Of a DNA stretch of 64,000 nucleotides, positions 46,374 to 54,319 are shown piece after piece (the stretch's first letter is position 1; each line of letters starts with the position of its first letter). This DNA comes from Sediminibacterium sp. C3 (lineage in GTDB: Bacteria; Bacteroidota; Bacteroidia; Chitinophagales; Chitinophagaceae). The stretch lies in the NCBI RefSeq assembly GCF_000508085.1, contig NZ_KI669560.1, positions 2,279,802 through 2,343,801 on the forward strand, given 5' to 3'. A model generated the notes under the pieces. That model did not search any database and had not been told where the DNA came from. It was given only the letters and a program-made list of their open reading frames with translations. Made by a program: the position numbers and the translations under genes.

Positions 46374-47483
46374 ATGTCAAGAATAAATTACAACCACTTC
46401 ACACTCGGCGTTGAAGAAGAGTACATGGTAATTGATCCCCTCTCACGCGAATTAAAAAGCCATGAGCAGAAAATTGTGCAGGTAGGTCAGTTAACTTTAA
46501 AAGACAAGGTAAAAGCAGAAATGCATCAGGCTGTGGTAGAAGTGGGAACAGATATCTGCAAAAACATAGACGAAGCTTTTAAAGACGTTGCTTCCCTGAG
46601 AGGAAATATTGCACAGATTGCGGGAGACCTGGGTCTCTGGGTTGGCGCGTCCGGAACTCATCCATTTAGTCATTGGGAAAACCAGCTCATTACCGATCAT
46701 GTTCGTTACAACCAGATTGTAAACGAGTTACAGGAAGCTGCCCGAAGCAATTTAATTTTTGGCCTGCATGTGCATGTTGGAATGGAAGACCGAAAAATGG
46801 CCATACATATTGCGAATACGGCCCGGTATTTTCTTCCACACGTTTATGCATTAAGCACCAACTCTCCTTTCTGGGAATCCAGGGATACCGGCTACAAATC
46901 TTTCCGAACCAAAGTGTTCGACAAATTTCCCAGAACCGGCATACCAGATTACTTTGAAAGTTTTGAGGCTTATGAAAATTATGTAAACCTGCTTATCAAG
47001 ACCAATTGTATTGACAATGCAAAAAAAATCTGGTGGGATTTAAGGGTACATCCCTTTTTTAATACGGTTGAATTCAGAATCTGCGATGTGCCCATGAATA
47101 TCATGGAAACCATGACCATTGCTGCTTTGTTTCAGGCCATCTGTGCTAAAATTTATAAACTCCGAAACCAGAATCTGAATTTCATGATGTATCAGCGATC
47201 CCTGATTAATGAAAACAAATGGCGAGCCAGCCGATATGGAATTGATGGCAAGCTCATTGATTTTGGTAAAGAAACAGAAGTAGAAACCAAGGCCTTGATT
47301 TACGAATTATTAGATTTCGTGGATGATGTAGTGGATGAATTGGGAAGCAGACATGTAGTAGAACATGTCACCAAAATATTTGAAAGAGGAACCGGGGCAG
47401 ACAGGCAATTGAAAGTATACCGCGAAACCGGCAGTCTGATTAGTGTGGTAGATTATATCCACGACCAGTTTTTGAGCGTTTAA
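46374..47483 (+). CDS. GCS2-family carboxylate-amine ligase (YbdK-like)
   Basis: 369-residue member of the glutamate-cysteine ligase 2 group. LGVEEEYMVID is the diagnostic N-terminal strand with three metal-binding Glu; GASGTHPFSHW, FGLHVHVGMEDRKMA and WWDLRVHPFFNTVEFRICDVP are the substrate- and ATP-side blocks. Homologues (YbdK) show weak gamma-glutamylcysteine ligase activity in vitro, but physiological roles are largely unknown. Cotranscribed with the ATP-grasp gene; a terminator follows at 47534. Confidence 0.88.
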   Translation: MSRINYNHFTLGVEEEYMVIDPLSRELKSHEQKIVQVGQLTLKDKVKAEMHQAVVEVGTDICKNIDEAFKDVASLRGNIAQIAGDLGLWVGASGTHPFSHWENQLITDHVRYNQIVNELQEAARSNLIFGLHVHVGMEDRKMAIHIANTARYFLPHVYALSTNSPFWESRDTGYKSFRTKVFDKFPRTGIPDYFESFEAYENYVNLLIKTNCIDNAKKIWWDLRVHPFFNTVEFRICDVPMNIMETMTIAALFQAICAKIYKLRNQNLNFMMYQRSLINENKWRASRYGIDGKLIDFGKETEVETKALIYELLDFVDDVVDELGSRHVVEHVTKIFERGTGADRQLKVYRETGSLISVVDYIHDQFLSV

Positions 47484-47533
47484 GTTTTCTGCTCAATTGA
47501 GCCCCAAACATTAAAATATTCACAAAAATTAGA

Positions 47534-47558
47534 AGCCCCTGCCAAACAGGGGCTTTTT
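47534..47558 (+). terminator. terminator of the ATP-grasp/GCS2 operon
   Basis: Perfect 8-bp GC-rich stem (47534-47541 with 47547-47554), CCAAA loop and five T. It lies 50 bases past the GCS2 stop. Confidence 0.85.
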
Positions 47559-47621
47559 GGTACAATTTTGTATTATTTAATTCCTTCAGGCAGCATTTTA
47601 CCAAAAACTGCCCTCTATTAA

Positions 47622-48182
47622 ATGTCAACCCTAAACCACCCTCTTTTGACCGAGCACGAGTTGATAAAAGGCTGTATACAACAGAACCCCGCATGCCAGC
47701 GTATGCTATTTGAAAAATACGCAGGCAAAATGATGGGGGTATGCCTCCGCTATGCCCAGGATAGTATGGAGGCGGAAGACATGCTGCAAGATGCTTTTGT
47801 AAAAGTATTTCAGTACATCGGTCAATTTAAATTTGAAGGCTCATTCGAAGGCTGGATCAGAAGAATTGTAGTAAATACAGCCATAAGACACCTGGAAAGA
47901 AAGAAGATGAGCTTTAAGGAAATTGATGACCATCAACCAGATCTTCCTTCAGTGGATCCCAGTGCCTATCATTTTCTGGGGGAGGAAGACCTAATGAAAC
48001 TCATCAGTGCGCTCCCGGAGGGATACAGGATGGTATTCAACCTAAGTGTGATTGAAGGATACAGCCACGATGAAATAGCAGAAATGCTGAATATTCAGGC
48101 GGGCACCAGCAGGAGCCAGCTGGTAAAAGCCAGAAAAATGTTGCAGAGTCAGATTCTGCAACTACAAAAGATTGCCGTTTAA
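47622..48182 (+). CDS. ECF-type RNA polymerase sigma factor
   Basis: 186-residue sigma-70 family protein with only regions 2 and 4. Region 2 is YAGKMMGVCLRYAQDSMEAE then DMLQDAFVKVFQYIGQF (the DMLQDAF core-binding stretch); region 4 is LPEGYRMVFNLSVIEGYSHD then EIAEMLNIQAGTSRSQLVKA, a helix-turn-helix for the -35 region. The stop codon is immediately followed by the ATG of the next gene (TAAATG), so translation is coupled. No classic anti-sigma gene with a zinc motif lies nearby; the next protein is the candidate regulator. Confidence 0.92.
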   Translation: MSTLNHPLLTEHELIKGCIQQNPACQRMLFEKYAGKMMGVCLRYAQDSMEAEDMLQDAFVKVFQYIGQFKFEGSFEGWIRRIVVNTAIRHLERKKMSFKEIDDHQPDLPSVDPSAYHFLGEEDLMKLISALPEGYRMVFNLSVIEGYSHDEIAEMLNIQAGTSRSQLVKARKMLQSQILQLQKIAV

Positions 48183-49820
48183 ATGAACAACAAAGCGTTC
48201 GATACTATCATACACCAAAAACTGCATTCGTACAGCGCTCCTGTACCCGCGGGATTATGGGATAAAATTGCCGCTAAAGATTTGTCGGAACCCAGTGATC
48301 CTTTTGACGAATTTGTTCAACATAAACTATATCATCATACGGCAGAAGCACCTTCACAACTTTGGGATAAAATACAAACGGCATTAATTCCACAGGAACC
48401 ATTCACTGCCAATCTGGATGAAGGTGAAGAAGAGAAAAAAAGAAGAAGGTTTATATTTTGGTTACCGCAAGAATTAAGGGTAGCTGCTTCCGTAGTATTG
48501 GTTTTATTAATTGGAACCGTAGCTGCGTACTTATACAATTATCGTTTTTCCGCTGAAGCTGTAAATGATAAGTCCGCTGCTCCTGCTCAGGTGCAGGAAT
48601 CAGGATCTACCAATCAGCCTGCTTTGGTACAAGAAAATCCAAACAAACAAGACGATCAAAATAACTCAGTAAATACAGTTGAAAAAATGGCAACAGGAGA
48701 TGTAGTTGCTGAAACAGCCCCCAATACTGCATCTGCAATTAAAAAAGAAGAGAAAGCGAGAAATGCGTCACTATCATGGAAACTAGACAAGAAAAACAAA
48801 ACTGCTTCCTTTAAAGAACGCGGTTCTGTTTTTCCATACGATCAGCGTTTAAAAAACAATAGTCAAAACAAGCTTACTGTTGATCGAACTCTTCTGAATA
48901 AACAGTCTGAAGTAGCGCTTGAAGTAACCGAGTCCCAACCTGAAGAAGAAGCCTATTCTCTTGCCGAAAAAGCAGGCAATGCATTTATCAGACAAAATAA
49001 AACTGCCTGGCGGGGAAACAACCACAATGTAAATGCCTATCAGCATGCATCCAGTTTTAAAAACGTAATCATTTGCCCCACCGATAGAAAAAGAAGAAAT
49101 CCTGACTGGGATCTTGAAGTGTACATTTCTCCGGATATGGCTTTTAAAACCGTCAGCAACAATACAGCTACAGCCCAGTTATTAAACAGCAAAGACAGTA
49201 GCGAGTCGTTAAGACCTGGATTCACTGCTGGTTTTAGAATCGTAAAACCACTGAATGATTATTTATCCATTAAGACCGGATTGCAATATTCGCAGATTAA
49301 TGAGCGATTCACTTACAAAACAGAAAACGAAACCAGAACCACCACCGTGGTAACGGTTCGTTCTATTGTAAGAGCCCCGGGAGACACATTGATTGTAAGA
49401 GACACCAGTACCCTAACACAGGTTGGGTTTAAAACCAATACTGTAAAAAACAGATTCAGAAGCCTGGACATTCCCGTTCTCGCAAGTGTTCAATTTGGCA
49501 ACGACAATTTAAAATGGGGCATCACCGCCGGTGCGATTGTTAATTTATCCAGCTGGTACGAAGGGGTTTTATTAGACAGCAGCCTGGCAGCCGTTGCCGT
49601 TGGCAAAGACAATGGCATGATGTATAAAAAGAATATTGGTCTAGGCTTATATGCAGGTTTTCATGTTACTAAAAGAATCAACTACAATACACAAATCTTT
49701 TTTGAACCCTATTTCAGATATAATTTATCGAATATGACTACAACAGGTGCACCATTCAATCAAAAGTTTAGTATTGGTGGACTGGCAATGGGTCTAAGAT
49801 TTAATTTAAACAGCAGATAG
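48183..49820 (+). CDS. trans-envelope protein: cytoplasmic repeat, TM helix, C-terminal beta-barrel
   Basis: 545-residue protein without a signal peptide. Residues 11-29 and 46-64 are two copies of a motif ending LWDKI (HQKLHSYSAPVPAGLWDKI and QHKLYHHTAEAPSQLWDKI). A basic patch (KKRRR, 85-89) precedes one transmembrane helix (about 100-118), so the N-terminus should be cytoplasmic. A disordered linker rich in Q, N, S, K (about 125-290) leads to an outer-membrane-barrel-like region (about 310-545, alternating strands such as LSIKTGLQYSQINERFTY). Because it is fused to the sigma gene by TAAATG, the N-terminal part is the likely anti-sigma module. This reading of topology is an inference. The C-terminus ends FNLNSR rather than an aromatic. 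Confidence 0.7.
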   Translation: MNNKAFDTIIHQKLHSYSAPVPAGLWDKIAAKDLSEPSDPFDEFVQHKLYHHTAEAPSQLWDKIQTALIPQEPFTANLDEGEEEKKRRRFIFWLPQELRVAASVVLVLLIGTVAAYLYNYRFSAEAVNDKSAAPAQVQESGSTNQPALVQENPNKQDDQNNSVNTVEKMATGDVVAETAPNTASAIKKEEKARNASLSWKLDKKNKTASFKERGSVFPYDQRLKNNSQNKLTVDRTLLNKQSEVALEVTESQPEEEAYSLAEKAGNAFIRQNKTAWRGNNHNVNAYQHASSFKNVIICPTDRKRRNPDWDLEVYISPDMAFKTVSNNTATAQLLNSKDSSESLRPGFTAGFRIVKPLNDYLSIKTGLQYSQINERFTYKTENETRTTTVVTVRSIVRAPGDTLIVRDTSTLTQVGFKTNTVKNRFRSLDIPVLASVQFGNDNLKWGITAGAIVNLSSWYEGVLLDSSLAAVAVGKDNGMMYKKNIGLGLYAGFHVTKRINYNTQIFFEPYFRYNLSNMTTTGAPFNQKFSIGGLAMGLRFNLNSR

Positions 49821-49855
49821 GCAACAATTAAAATTAATACAGTATCTATAACATA

Positions 49856-50881
49856 ATGTTACGCAAGTTTTTCAAATATTATTTCACTGCTCTAACAGGT
49901 ATCTTTTTGTTTACTGCCTGTAACAAGGAAGTATCAGATGGAAATAATTTTGTTCTGTATAACAATGACCTAAGGAACGATACTACATGGGCTACCGGAA
50001 GCTTTACTAGCACTGGAATACAACGCATGTTAGATTCAACAGCCGTATACAAACACAATGATACTATGATGGGAACCAATGCAAAAACCATTGCGTTTTC
50101 TGAAAAATTCAGTGTGTATTTCCCGGCTAATGCTTTCGTAAGCAAAACCGGGGACAGCATTAAGGGACCCGTTGAAATTAAATTGTTACTATTGGATGAA
50201 AAGGGGGAGTTTATCAGAACTGTAAAATCATCCGAGAACCCTGGTCATATGCTTGAATCAGATCTGGCATTCTGCCTGATTGCCACTTCCAATGGAGAAG
50301 AATTAAAAATTGCTCCTGGCAAAAAATACCGTATCAGAGCTGGCAACAAATACGAACAGGTAAAACAACAGATGAAGATTTATTCAGGTGAAGAATCTGT
50401 AACCTATACCTCACAGGTATTAGCTGACCCGCAGTTTTTCTGGAAAGAATCGAATCCATTGAATGTACAGCAATCTGTTTACAGAACCAATAATGGAAGC
50501 AGAGACATAGAACATTACGAAATTAGTACTAACCAGCTACGTTGGATAGCAATTGCCACCCCCAATAACAACCTGGGTAATACCAATAAATTGCATGTTT
50601 TGCTACCACCCAACTTCACTAATAAAAACACCATTGTTTTTGCAACTGCTGACGACTATAATACAGTGATTCAATTGTTGCCAGAGATGAGTTCCCGGTC
50701 ATTCAAATCGGAAATGATTCCACAACAAAAGAAGATTCACATCATAACACTCTCTTTAATTGGCAATCAGTTCTACTATAGCGAAACAGGATATTCCTAT
50801 CTGAACAACAAAATCTATGTTTCAATTAAGCCGGAAAAAAAATCACTGGCCGCCATTTTAAACAGTCTTAAAAAACTATAA
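49856..50881 (+). CDS. lipoprotein, third gene of the sigma operon
   Basis: 341-residue predicted lipoprotein: a short basic N-terminus, hydrophobic core and lipobox FTAC with Cys22, then a mature protein of mostly beta structure. I recognise no family. It includes a repeat-free, Thr/Asn-rich region and a segment resembling a beta-sandwich (FSEKFSVYFPANAFVSKTGD), a ZU5-like pattern seen in other Bacteroidota surface proteins. Its gene is 35 bases behind the barrel gene and ends with a hairpin, so the three genes form one unit. It could be a ligand-binding or folding partner. Confidence 0.65.
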   Translation: MLRKFFKYYFTALTGIFLFTACNKEVSDGNNFVLYNNDLRNDTTWATGSFTSTGIQRMLDSTAVYKHNDTMMGTNAKTIAFSEKFSVYFPANAFVSKTGDSIKGPVEIKLLLLDEKGEFIRTVKSSENPGHMLESDLAFCLIATSNGEELKIAPGKKYRIRAGNKYEQVKQQMKIYSGEESVTYTSQVLADPQFFWKESNPLNVQQSVYRTNNGSRDIEHYEISTNQLRWIAIATPNNNLGNTNKLHVLLPPNFTNKNTIVFATADDYNTVIQLLPEMSSRSFKSEMIPQQKKIHIITLSLIGNQFYYSETGYSYLNNKIYVSIKPEKKSLAAILNSLKKL

Positions 50882-50914: not shown

Positions 50915-50947
50915 GGCCCTGCCTTCGGCAGGGCCTTACTATTTTTT
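50915..50947 (+). terminator. terminator of the sigma operon
   Basis: Perfect 9-bp GC-rich stem (50915-50923 with 50927-50935), TTC loop, then T-rich tract reaching six T at 50942-50947. It overlaps the convergent MFS stop codon. Confidence 0.8.
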
Positions 50948-53347: not shown

Positions 53348-54220
53348 TTATTTTTTCAAAGTAATCAGTCCTAATTGCGCTTCTTTGGTTTTAGATACCA
53401 CCACATTGGTAATAGTAGTATCACTGTAGCCATTGGATGCATTTACAAAAACACTGTAGGTTCCATCCGATAATCCTCTTACTTTAAAATGCCCGTCATG
53501 ATTAGGCAAAGCATAAGCAGTGTCTTTGCTGTTAAATACCGTAATGACAGCCTGCGCTTCCTTCGGTGTTACTTTACCGGATACACTGGCAGTAGCTTTT
53601 ACGGTGAAGAATTTAATGACCGGCTTTAGATAAAACTGACCGTTCTTTTCAATAATGGATCTGCTTACATCAAAGTCTAACCAAAGTCTGGAACGACTGG
53701 GAAGAAATTCCTCCCACTCATGTCCTTTCAATTTAACCAGGATATAATTTTTTTCGTTCAGCGGAATGTTCAAAGGATACGTAACACTGTCTTTAATTAA
53801 AGTATGTGTTGCACCCAGTTCAATTTTAATTAAACGAATAGCGCCCTTTGGCACAGTTGCCGTTGCCAGCAAAGTATCTACGCCATTTCGCAGTTTTAAA
53901 ATATCATACACGCCGGGATTCACACCCAGGTTCTGCCAAACCAGCGAGGAATCCTTTTTTTCATTTCTGGAACGACCTATTCTATCCCAGTCACAGGTAT
54001 CTTTTTTACGCGTGTCTTTACTGGTATCTACCAATAACCAGACAGATTTAATGTCAATTAACACATTGTCAAAAACGCCCGGGGCATCCGTTAAATACAA
54101 TGACACCGATTGAGAGCCAACAGGGTTTTCAATGGAAGCTGCTTTGTTGCAGGCAGACAATGACACTACTAAAACGATGGCAAATGCAGCCATCCAGAAA
54201 AGGGGGTTTGTTTTTTTCAT
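53348..54220 (-). CDS. DUF4382 lipoprotein
   Basis: 290-residue predicted lipoprotein. N-terminal hydrophobic stretch with lipobox SLSAC, then a DUF4382 domain (about residues 37-205, VSLYLTDAPGVFDNVLIDIKSV) and a short carboxypeptidase-regulatory-like C-terminal domain (about 210-290, VSGKVTPKEAQAVITVFNS). Probably on the cell surface or periplasmic face of the envelope; the function of DUF4382 proteins is not known. Single-gene unit with its own terminator. Confidence 0.82.
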   Translation of the reverse strand: MKKTNPLFWMAAFAIVLVVSLSACNKAASIENPVGSQSVSLYLTDAPGVFDNVLIDIKSVWLLVDTSKDTRKKDTCDWDRIGRSRNEKKDSSLVWQNLGVNPGVYDILKLRNGVDTLLATATVPKGAIRLIKIELGATHTLIKDSVTYPLNIPLNEKNYILVKLKGHEWEEFLPSRSRLWLDFDVSRSIIEKNGQFYLKPVIKFFTVKATASVSGKVTPKEAQAVITVFNSKDTAYALPNHDGHFKVRGLSDGTYSVFVNASNGYSDTTITNVVVSKTKEAQLGLITLKK

Positions 54221-54319
54221 GGTTCAGGTTTTTAGTGTAGCGTTATATCCATGAAAAAGAGATGCCAGGTGTTTTTAGAATGTTGCCTGTTAAATAAATT
54301 TTAACAAAAAAGATTTTTC

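Follow-up and report, generated by a model that had tools for sequence, protein, structure and literature searches.

An ECF sigma operon of Sediminibacterium encodes a probable Dma-type anti-sigma factor with tandem putative sigma-holding units

Introduction

The excerpts available of papers from 2022 to 2026 describe anti-sigma factors that span both membranes of the cell envelope, Dma1-3 and Reo of Bacteroides and Phocaeicola. According to the accessible parts of the 2026 Dma2 paper (PMC13088901), Dma proteins occur only in Bacteroidota, are encoded beside a sigma gene of the extracytoplasmic function (ECF) group ECF21 and run from an anti-sigma domain at the N-terminus through a helix and a disordered tether to a barrel at the C-terminus, with Dma3 carrying a sigma domain of its own. 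The available text of Evans 2022 (PMC9308784) attributes this layout to an unusual anti-sigma factor from Phocaeicola vulgatus, and a further article, also seen in excerpt (PMC13114119, citing Evans 2022), names the pair EcfO-Reo, has Reo spanning five compartments and places NigD paralogs in its regulon. Here we describe a related operon in a 64,000-nucleotide stretch (the window; G000:C4:2279802-2343801) of the 3.2-Mb genome of Sediminibacterium sp. C3, which encodes an ECF sigma factor, a barrel protein of 545 amino acids and a lipoprotein.

With a probability of roughly 0.88, this operon pairs the ECF sigma factor with a Dma-type anti-sigma factor that would release it upon disturbance of the outer membrane. 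The reading is carried, at the level of sequence, by the architecture of the barrel protein, its co-conservation with the sigma gene, its homology to Dma-like proteins and the conservation of the promoters. An earlier, sequence-only reading had proposed a trans-envelope signalling unit; its single chain of anti-sigma-like segment, helix, tether and barrel stands, as does the co-conserved sigma gene, while its novelty falls to Dma and Reo. The concept of a membrane-bridging anti-sigma factor being already published, the system is not a new class, and a categorically new one is ruled out by the proteins of the same layout in the accessible parts of PMC13088901 and PMC9308784.

Results

Architecture of the barrel protein

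The sigma gene (47646..48182), the gene of the 545-residue protein (48183..49820) and that of the 341-residue lipoprotein (49856..50881) follow each other on the + strand. Re-reading the sequence and its translations bore out the open reading frames (ORFs) as first described, including the TAA stop of the sigma gene, which directly abuts the ATG of the 545-residue gene, and the 35-base gap before the lipoprotein gene. The sigma protein matches PF04542 and PF08281, and Foldseek paired its modelled part with sigma factors whose structures were determined together with RseA, MucA and RsiW.

The 545-residue protein begins with two putative sigma-holding units at residues 5-30 (48195..48272) and 40-65 (48300..48377), delimited by a unit hidden Markov model (HMM) and repeat analysis; they are 42% identical and contain the two LWDKI motifs seen before. 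A run of lysine and arginine stands just N-terminal to a single membrane helix at about residues 100-118 (48480..48536), where the best hydropathy window starts at residue 100 with a mean of 2.28, so that the basic patch and helix of the sequence-only reading are both recovered. The disordered tether at about residues 125-301 (48555..49085) has no secondary structure in an AlphaFold2 model and a predicted local distance difference test score (pLDDT) mostly below 50, in agreement with the long flexible linker first described. Among relatives, 138-255 residues (median 177) separate the helix from a conserved ICP motif ahead of the barrel (116 of 120 proteins measured, these being the best 120 of 224 matches).

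The C-terminal part, at about residues 310-541 (49110..49805), is predicted to be an outer-membrane-type beta-barrel. PF13568 matches residues 335-517 (E=1.8e-9), and Foldseek returned OmpA, NspA, OmpX and OpcA, with a template modelling score (TM-score, by target) of up to 0.68 for OmpA/NspA-like folds. The model was computed for a stop-read-through fusion of the sigma factor and the 545-residue protein from a mostly unpaired alignment (mean pLDDT 61), with good confidence for sigma region 2 and much of the barrel, and with a helix at residues 99-127. The helix, tether and barrel give good support, from sequence and model, to a topology running from the inner membrane through the periplasm to the outer membrane, with membrane insertion as a prediction. 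A single polypeptide of anti-sigma-like segment, helix, disordered tether and outer-membrane-type barrel, co-conserved with the sigma gene, is supported.

Conservation of the gene pair

A scan of public genomes yielded 48 loci, with named relatives in Sediminibacterium, other Chitinophagaceae and loosely named Bacteroidota assemblies. The sigma gene lies directly upstream of the barrel gene in 44 of the 44 loci where both are visible (44 of 48 overall), the contig beginning inside or just before the barrel gene in the remaining four (L036, L047, L056, L059); the two genes are thus conserved as a pair. In each of the 44, the ATG of the anti-sigma gene stands between -1 and +5 bases from the stop of the sigma gene. 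Downstream of the barrel gene, a lipoprotein relative is encoded in 48 of 48 loci, of which one has an assembly gap (L049) and another is cut by the contig end (L068). In Sediminibacterium salmoneum (L032, 5725-6000, + strand) the sigma gene is present as a 91-residue ORF only, beside an intact barrel gene, which a frameshift, an error in the assembly or gene decay could explain.

Across 294 genomes of the family, the barrel protein was matched in 85 (many matches weak and part-length) and the lipoprotein profile in 149. Of the 48 lipoprotein matches with E below 1e-50, 46 lay within 150 bases of a barrel match when the two lists were compared by reading; both exceptions, G016 and G148, have to do with contig ends. 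More weakly matching lipoproteins are also encoded in other places, and the family thus extends beyond the operon.

A sample of the phylum added 27 loci (L083-L109), all with the sigma gene; in 22 of them the ORF that follows it is 424-617 residues long and appears barrel-like at its C-terminus by eye. Two of the 27 have an anti-sigma-like part (225 or 369 residues) without a Pfam barrel. At L099 (1543-3264, + strand) it is followed by a separate gene for a protein of 337 residues with a weak PF13568 match (E=0.0026, under the cut-off), so that L099 may have the fused protein in split form; at L089 (1-2073, - strand) the gene that follows runs off the end of the locus.

Relation to Dma, Reo and other systems

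For comparison, NigD-bearing genomes (7 of 197 genomes) were searched with the sigma factor of the window. Sigma, Dma-like and NigD genes stand together at L121, L127, L128 and L130, while at L123 (385-2028, - strand) and L124 (1489-3192, + strand) sigma domains, helix and PF13568 lie in one frame of 547 and 567 residues; these arrangements match the layouts of Dma1/Reo and Dma3, respectively, as given in the accessible parts of the papers. Sigma factors encoded beside 12 Dma-like proteins are 31-48% identical to that of the window. With the helix left out and column-shuffled controls, the anti-sigma segment of about 40 residues scored 45.1 against these 12 proteins (shuffled maximum 14.2 in 60 shuffles) and 40.6 against 17 aligned proteins of loci L083-L109 (shuffled maximum 15.3). 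The barrel profile matched the same two sets with probabilities of 97.9% and 98.6%. Together with the shared layout, the segment and barrel matches make the window protein Dma-type by architecture and by sequence homology. The unit motif is also found ahead of the membrane helix in Dma-like proteins from other families, which suggests that these and the window family share a minimal anti-sigma motif of about 26-30 residues.

As far as the excerpts describe them, Dma1 and Dma2 with Das1 and Das2 (Bacteroides thetaiotaomicron) and Reo with EcfO (Phocaeicola vulgatus) share with the window an adjacent ECF sigma gene, the same four-part protein and further genes in the same operon or regulon, these being NigD lipoproteins for Dma1 and Reo. 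Unlike them, the window family carries tandem putative sigma-holding units in 1-7 copies, a comparison for which Dma1-3 are known by description only, and the window has a dedicated promoter in the gap between anti-sigma and lipoprotein genes. In place of NigD stands a lipoprotein family without a common Pfam match. With Dma3, again going by the available text, the window shares sigma, helix and barrel as one unit, its TAA-ATG junction being in frame, but it keeps two separate genes.

Cell-surface signalling of the FecA-FecR and SusC type passes an outer-membrane event to an ECF sigma factor, as would the system proposed here. In contrast to those systems, no TonB-dependent receptor, STN or FecR domain turned up when the three operon proteins were compared with Pfam, as the sequence-only reading had noted.

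Tandem N-terminal units

The unit is about 26 residues long, with the consensus xFDxFxxxKLxxHxAPVPxGLWdKI, and recurs as a tandem repeat of 28 residues in 1 to 7 copies among relatives. The 11 seeds of the unit HMM come from the window protein's family, towards which the counts lean. The window protein and the best 120 of 224 matches (8000 best candidates scored) carry 2 units in 65 of the 121 proteins, 3 in 9, 4 in 21, 5 in 21, 6 in 3 and 7 in 1, with none in a truncated entry. Genomic loci gave a protein in 72 of 77 cases, with 1 unit in 34, 2 in 15, 3 in 4, 4 in 5, 5 in 7 and 6 in 3; the four without units have technical reasons (L036 and L056 truncated, L040 and L069 wrong ORF), and the count for L047, also truncated, is a lower bound.

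Where at least four units stand in register (46 relatives), neighbouring units are 28 residues apart in 165 of 168 steps, so the motif repeats far beyond chance. Inner copies keep the aspartate in 122 of 122 cases and the tryptophan in 96%. The varying counts and these conserved residues suggest that copy number drifts while each copy is under constraint. Within Sediminibacterium alone, S. goheungense, S. ginsengisoli and S. magnilacihabitans have one copy, S. salmoneum has 2, S. soli 4 and S. roseum 5. We met no account of tandem units or of such promoter motifs in the available parts of the Dma and Reo literature, which is weak evidence of absence, as neither was searched for directly.

Promoters and the sigma start codon

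A rigid promoter motif of about GGCA[AG]C-N16-GTATCT lies about 52-73 bases before the sigma start codon. The form GGCA[AG]C-N14-19-[GC][TCG]NTCT was found in 53 of 70 sigma upstream regions (maximum of 1 in 50 mononucleotide shuffles) and a looser form in 62 of 70, with a spacer of 16 in 61 of these 62. L006, L009 and L022, without a sigma start, are excluded from the 70 regions, some of which are near-identical or come twice from the same genome (L003/L069, L004/L075, L005/L070). In the window, this promoter (P1) reads GGCAGC-N16-CCCTCT at 47589..47616 (+ strand).

The gap between the anti-sigma and lipoprotein genes holds the motif, with a spacer of 15-17, in 39 of 49 sequences (maximum of 1 in 200 shuffles). 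Its copy in the window (P2, GGCAACAATTAAAATTAATACAGTATCT, 49820..49847, + strand) takes in the final base of the stop codon of the barrel gene and is the only exact GGCARC-N16-GTATCT in the genome. Over the 48 loci, GGCA[AG]C-N16-[GTC][TCG][ACG]TCT occurs at 92 forward sites versus 1 in the reversed control. We infer that the sigma factor of the window reads these promoters. By eye, the sigma genes of NigD-bearing genomes at L118, L122 and L126 seem to be preceded by a comparable motif, with TGCA[AG]C some 15 bases ahead of GC[AG]TCT.

This arrangement bears on the start of the sigma gene, which had been placed at ATG 47622 (186 residues). The codon just before the conserved TE-x-E-L-I-x-G-C stretch is GTG in 28, TTG in 15 and ATG in none of 43 sequences (42 loci and the window), and the -10 element of P1 ends only 5 bases before ATG 47622. 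We therefore move the start to TTG 47646 (178 residues), probably the correct one in the window. By contrast, ATG is the start codon of the anti-sigma gene in each of 44 loci and in the window.

A one-mismatch scan of the window's genome led to a candidate third promoter (P3, GGCAACATTCTAAAAACACCTGGCATCT, 54260..54287, - strand), 39 bases upstream of a gene for a 290-residue DUF4382 lipoprotein (53348..54220, - strand; PF14321 E=4.2e-19). This gene is present in 14 of the 48 loci, where P3 is found in strict form in 5 and in relaxed form in 1 more; the DUF4382 lipoprotein is a plausible, though not a general, target of the sigma factor. Among 22 one-mismatch sites in this genome, only the DUF4382 site and one other, at L200, are intergenic and within 40 bases of a start, and of these two the DUF4382 site is backed by some relatives. 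The copy at L200 (near 1501-1528, + strand) lies 20 bases before the gene of a 493-residue, exported-looking protein. A wide regulon was considered and rejected: 11 genomes hold 38 consensus sites (reversed control 2), 16 of which are the two operon promoters, and among the other 22 the 19 viewed by eye showed no recurring gene family and several lay inside genes, while three had no locus.

The lipoprotein

The 341-residue lipoprotein has its lipobox cysteine at residue 22. No Pfam family matched the window protein, and none matched more than one of the 48 members. As a lead only, its model resembles ZU5/GAIN folds at about residues 64-240, followed by an immunoglobulin-like domain at about 241-330. 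The self-cleavage motif of ZU5, GAIN and FIIND domains includes a conserved histidine; no such histidine was found in the invariant or nearly invariant columns of the 48 lipoproteins. A search of solved structures with the lipoprotein profile returned two chance-level matches only (E 0.47 and 0.96). An identity with NigD was rejected, PF12667 having no match in this protein or elsewhere in the window's genome; the absence of NigD from the 50 fold matches listed in each of two fold searches is uninformative.

Operon limits

Terminator-like hairpins at 47533..47555, between the sigma gene and an upstream gene of glutamate-cysteine ligase family 2 (GCS2), and at 50915..50935, 3' of the lipoprotein gene, flank the three genes, which thus look like one unit, apart from the GCS2 gene. 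They come from a simple consensus scan that gave 8 sites in the region versus a shuffled mean of 3.6. The GCS2 gene (window 46374-47483) is found upstream in 41 of the 48 loci, at most 800 bases from the barrel gene in 37.

Discussion

For a working mechanism we infer sigma binding, membrane insertion, promoter recognition by the sigma factor, a signal and a release step. The two N-terminal units would retain the sigma factor at the inner membrane, in which the single helix would anchor the protein, while the disordered tether of about 175 residues would cross the periplasm and the OmpA-like barrel would sit in the outer membrane. Disturbance at the barrel or tether, perhaps by pulling, failed barrel assembly or proteolysis, would free the sigma factor. 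Once free, it would transcribe its own operon from GGCA[AG]C-N16-GTATCT-like promoters, a positive autoregulation, and would drive the adjacent lipoprotein from the second promoter and perhaps the DUF4382 lipoprotein. The GTG or TTG start of the sigma gene, compared with the ATG of the anti-sigma gene, may help to keep the inhibitor in excess.

The same chain could be made in one piece and then cleaved in the periplasm, with barrel and anti-sigma part working apart. Site-1 and site-2 proteolysis acts on RseA and RsiW, the tether is long, disordered and poorly conserved (138-255 residues), and L099 encodes the two parts as separate neighbouring genes. Yet 22 of the 27 distant loci keep a long ORF that ends barrel-like by eye, and the tether is never shorter than 138 residues in the 116 proteins measured from the best 120 of 224 matches, which is consistent with a reach across the periplasm; we regard cleavage as unlikely. 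Rather doubtful, too, is the earlier proposal that the lipoprotein is a surface sensor acting on the barrel. Its strict adjacency (48 of 48 loci, and 46 of 48 strong matches across 294 genomes, with the other two at contig ends) would suit a sensor but equally fits an output or feedback protein, and its own sigma-type promoter in the 35-base gap, present in 39 of 49 sequences, points to an output. The lipoprotein is thus probably a target of the sigma factor, with feedback possible. Most improbable is that the N-terminal units bind something other than sigma and that the barrel protein is simply co-transcribed. No complex was predicted in the fused model, but in the several groups of families that were viewed a sigma gene immediately precedes the unit, the aspartate and tryptophan of its inner copies are held almost throughout, and the NCBIfam anti-sigma model NF052375 matches weakly (E=3.8e-4, under its cut-off).

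Several observations weigh against this reading of the operon. In the fused model, with its mostly unpaired alignment, the N-terminal units reached a pLDDT of about 40-50 without a predicted complex, so that this run neither shows nor excludes sigma binding, and a continuous chain in both membranes is, for this protein, a prediction. Five sampled distant relatives gave one match above the Pfam barrel cut-off, two weak ones and two none. Kinship was measured with Dma-like proteins of the published layout rather than with the named Dma1, Dma2 and Reo sequences. On the side of the promoters, P1 of the window has a weak -10 element (CCCTCT), P3 is strict in only 5 of the 14 DUF4382-bearing loci and missing in close relatives such as L032, and the one-mismatch scan of the window's genome gave 23 sites versus 14 in the reversed control, which offers no basis for a wide regulon.

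To the known Dma concept, this locus adds tandem units, paired promoters and a conserved lipoprotein. Dma proteins have been described only recently, and the available parts of the Dma and Reo papers do not report their signal and release step. The system brings in a conserved lipoprotein partner without an assigned function, and its promoter motif is readable by eye, so that targets can be predicted and reporters built in this lineage. More tentatively, and with the odds somewhat against it, the tandem units may act as multi-site sigma stores, in which several sigma molecules would be held per anti-sigma chain (2 in the window, up to 7 in relatives) and copy number, varying between species of one genus, would tune the threshold of an outer-membrane stress response or the size of its burst, with lipoproteins of a ZU5/GAIN-like fold as its first outputs. 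The Sediminibacterium species are natural copy-number variants of this putative sigma-holding motif.

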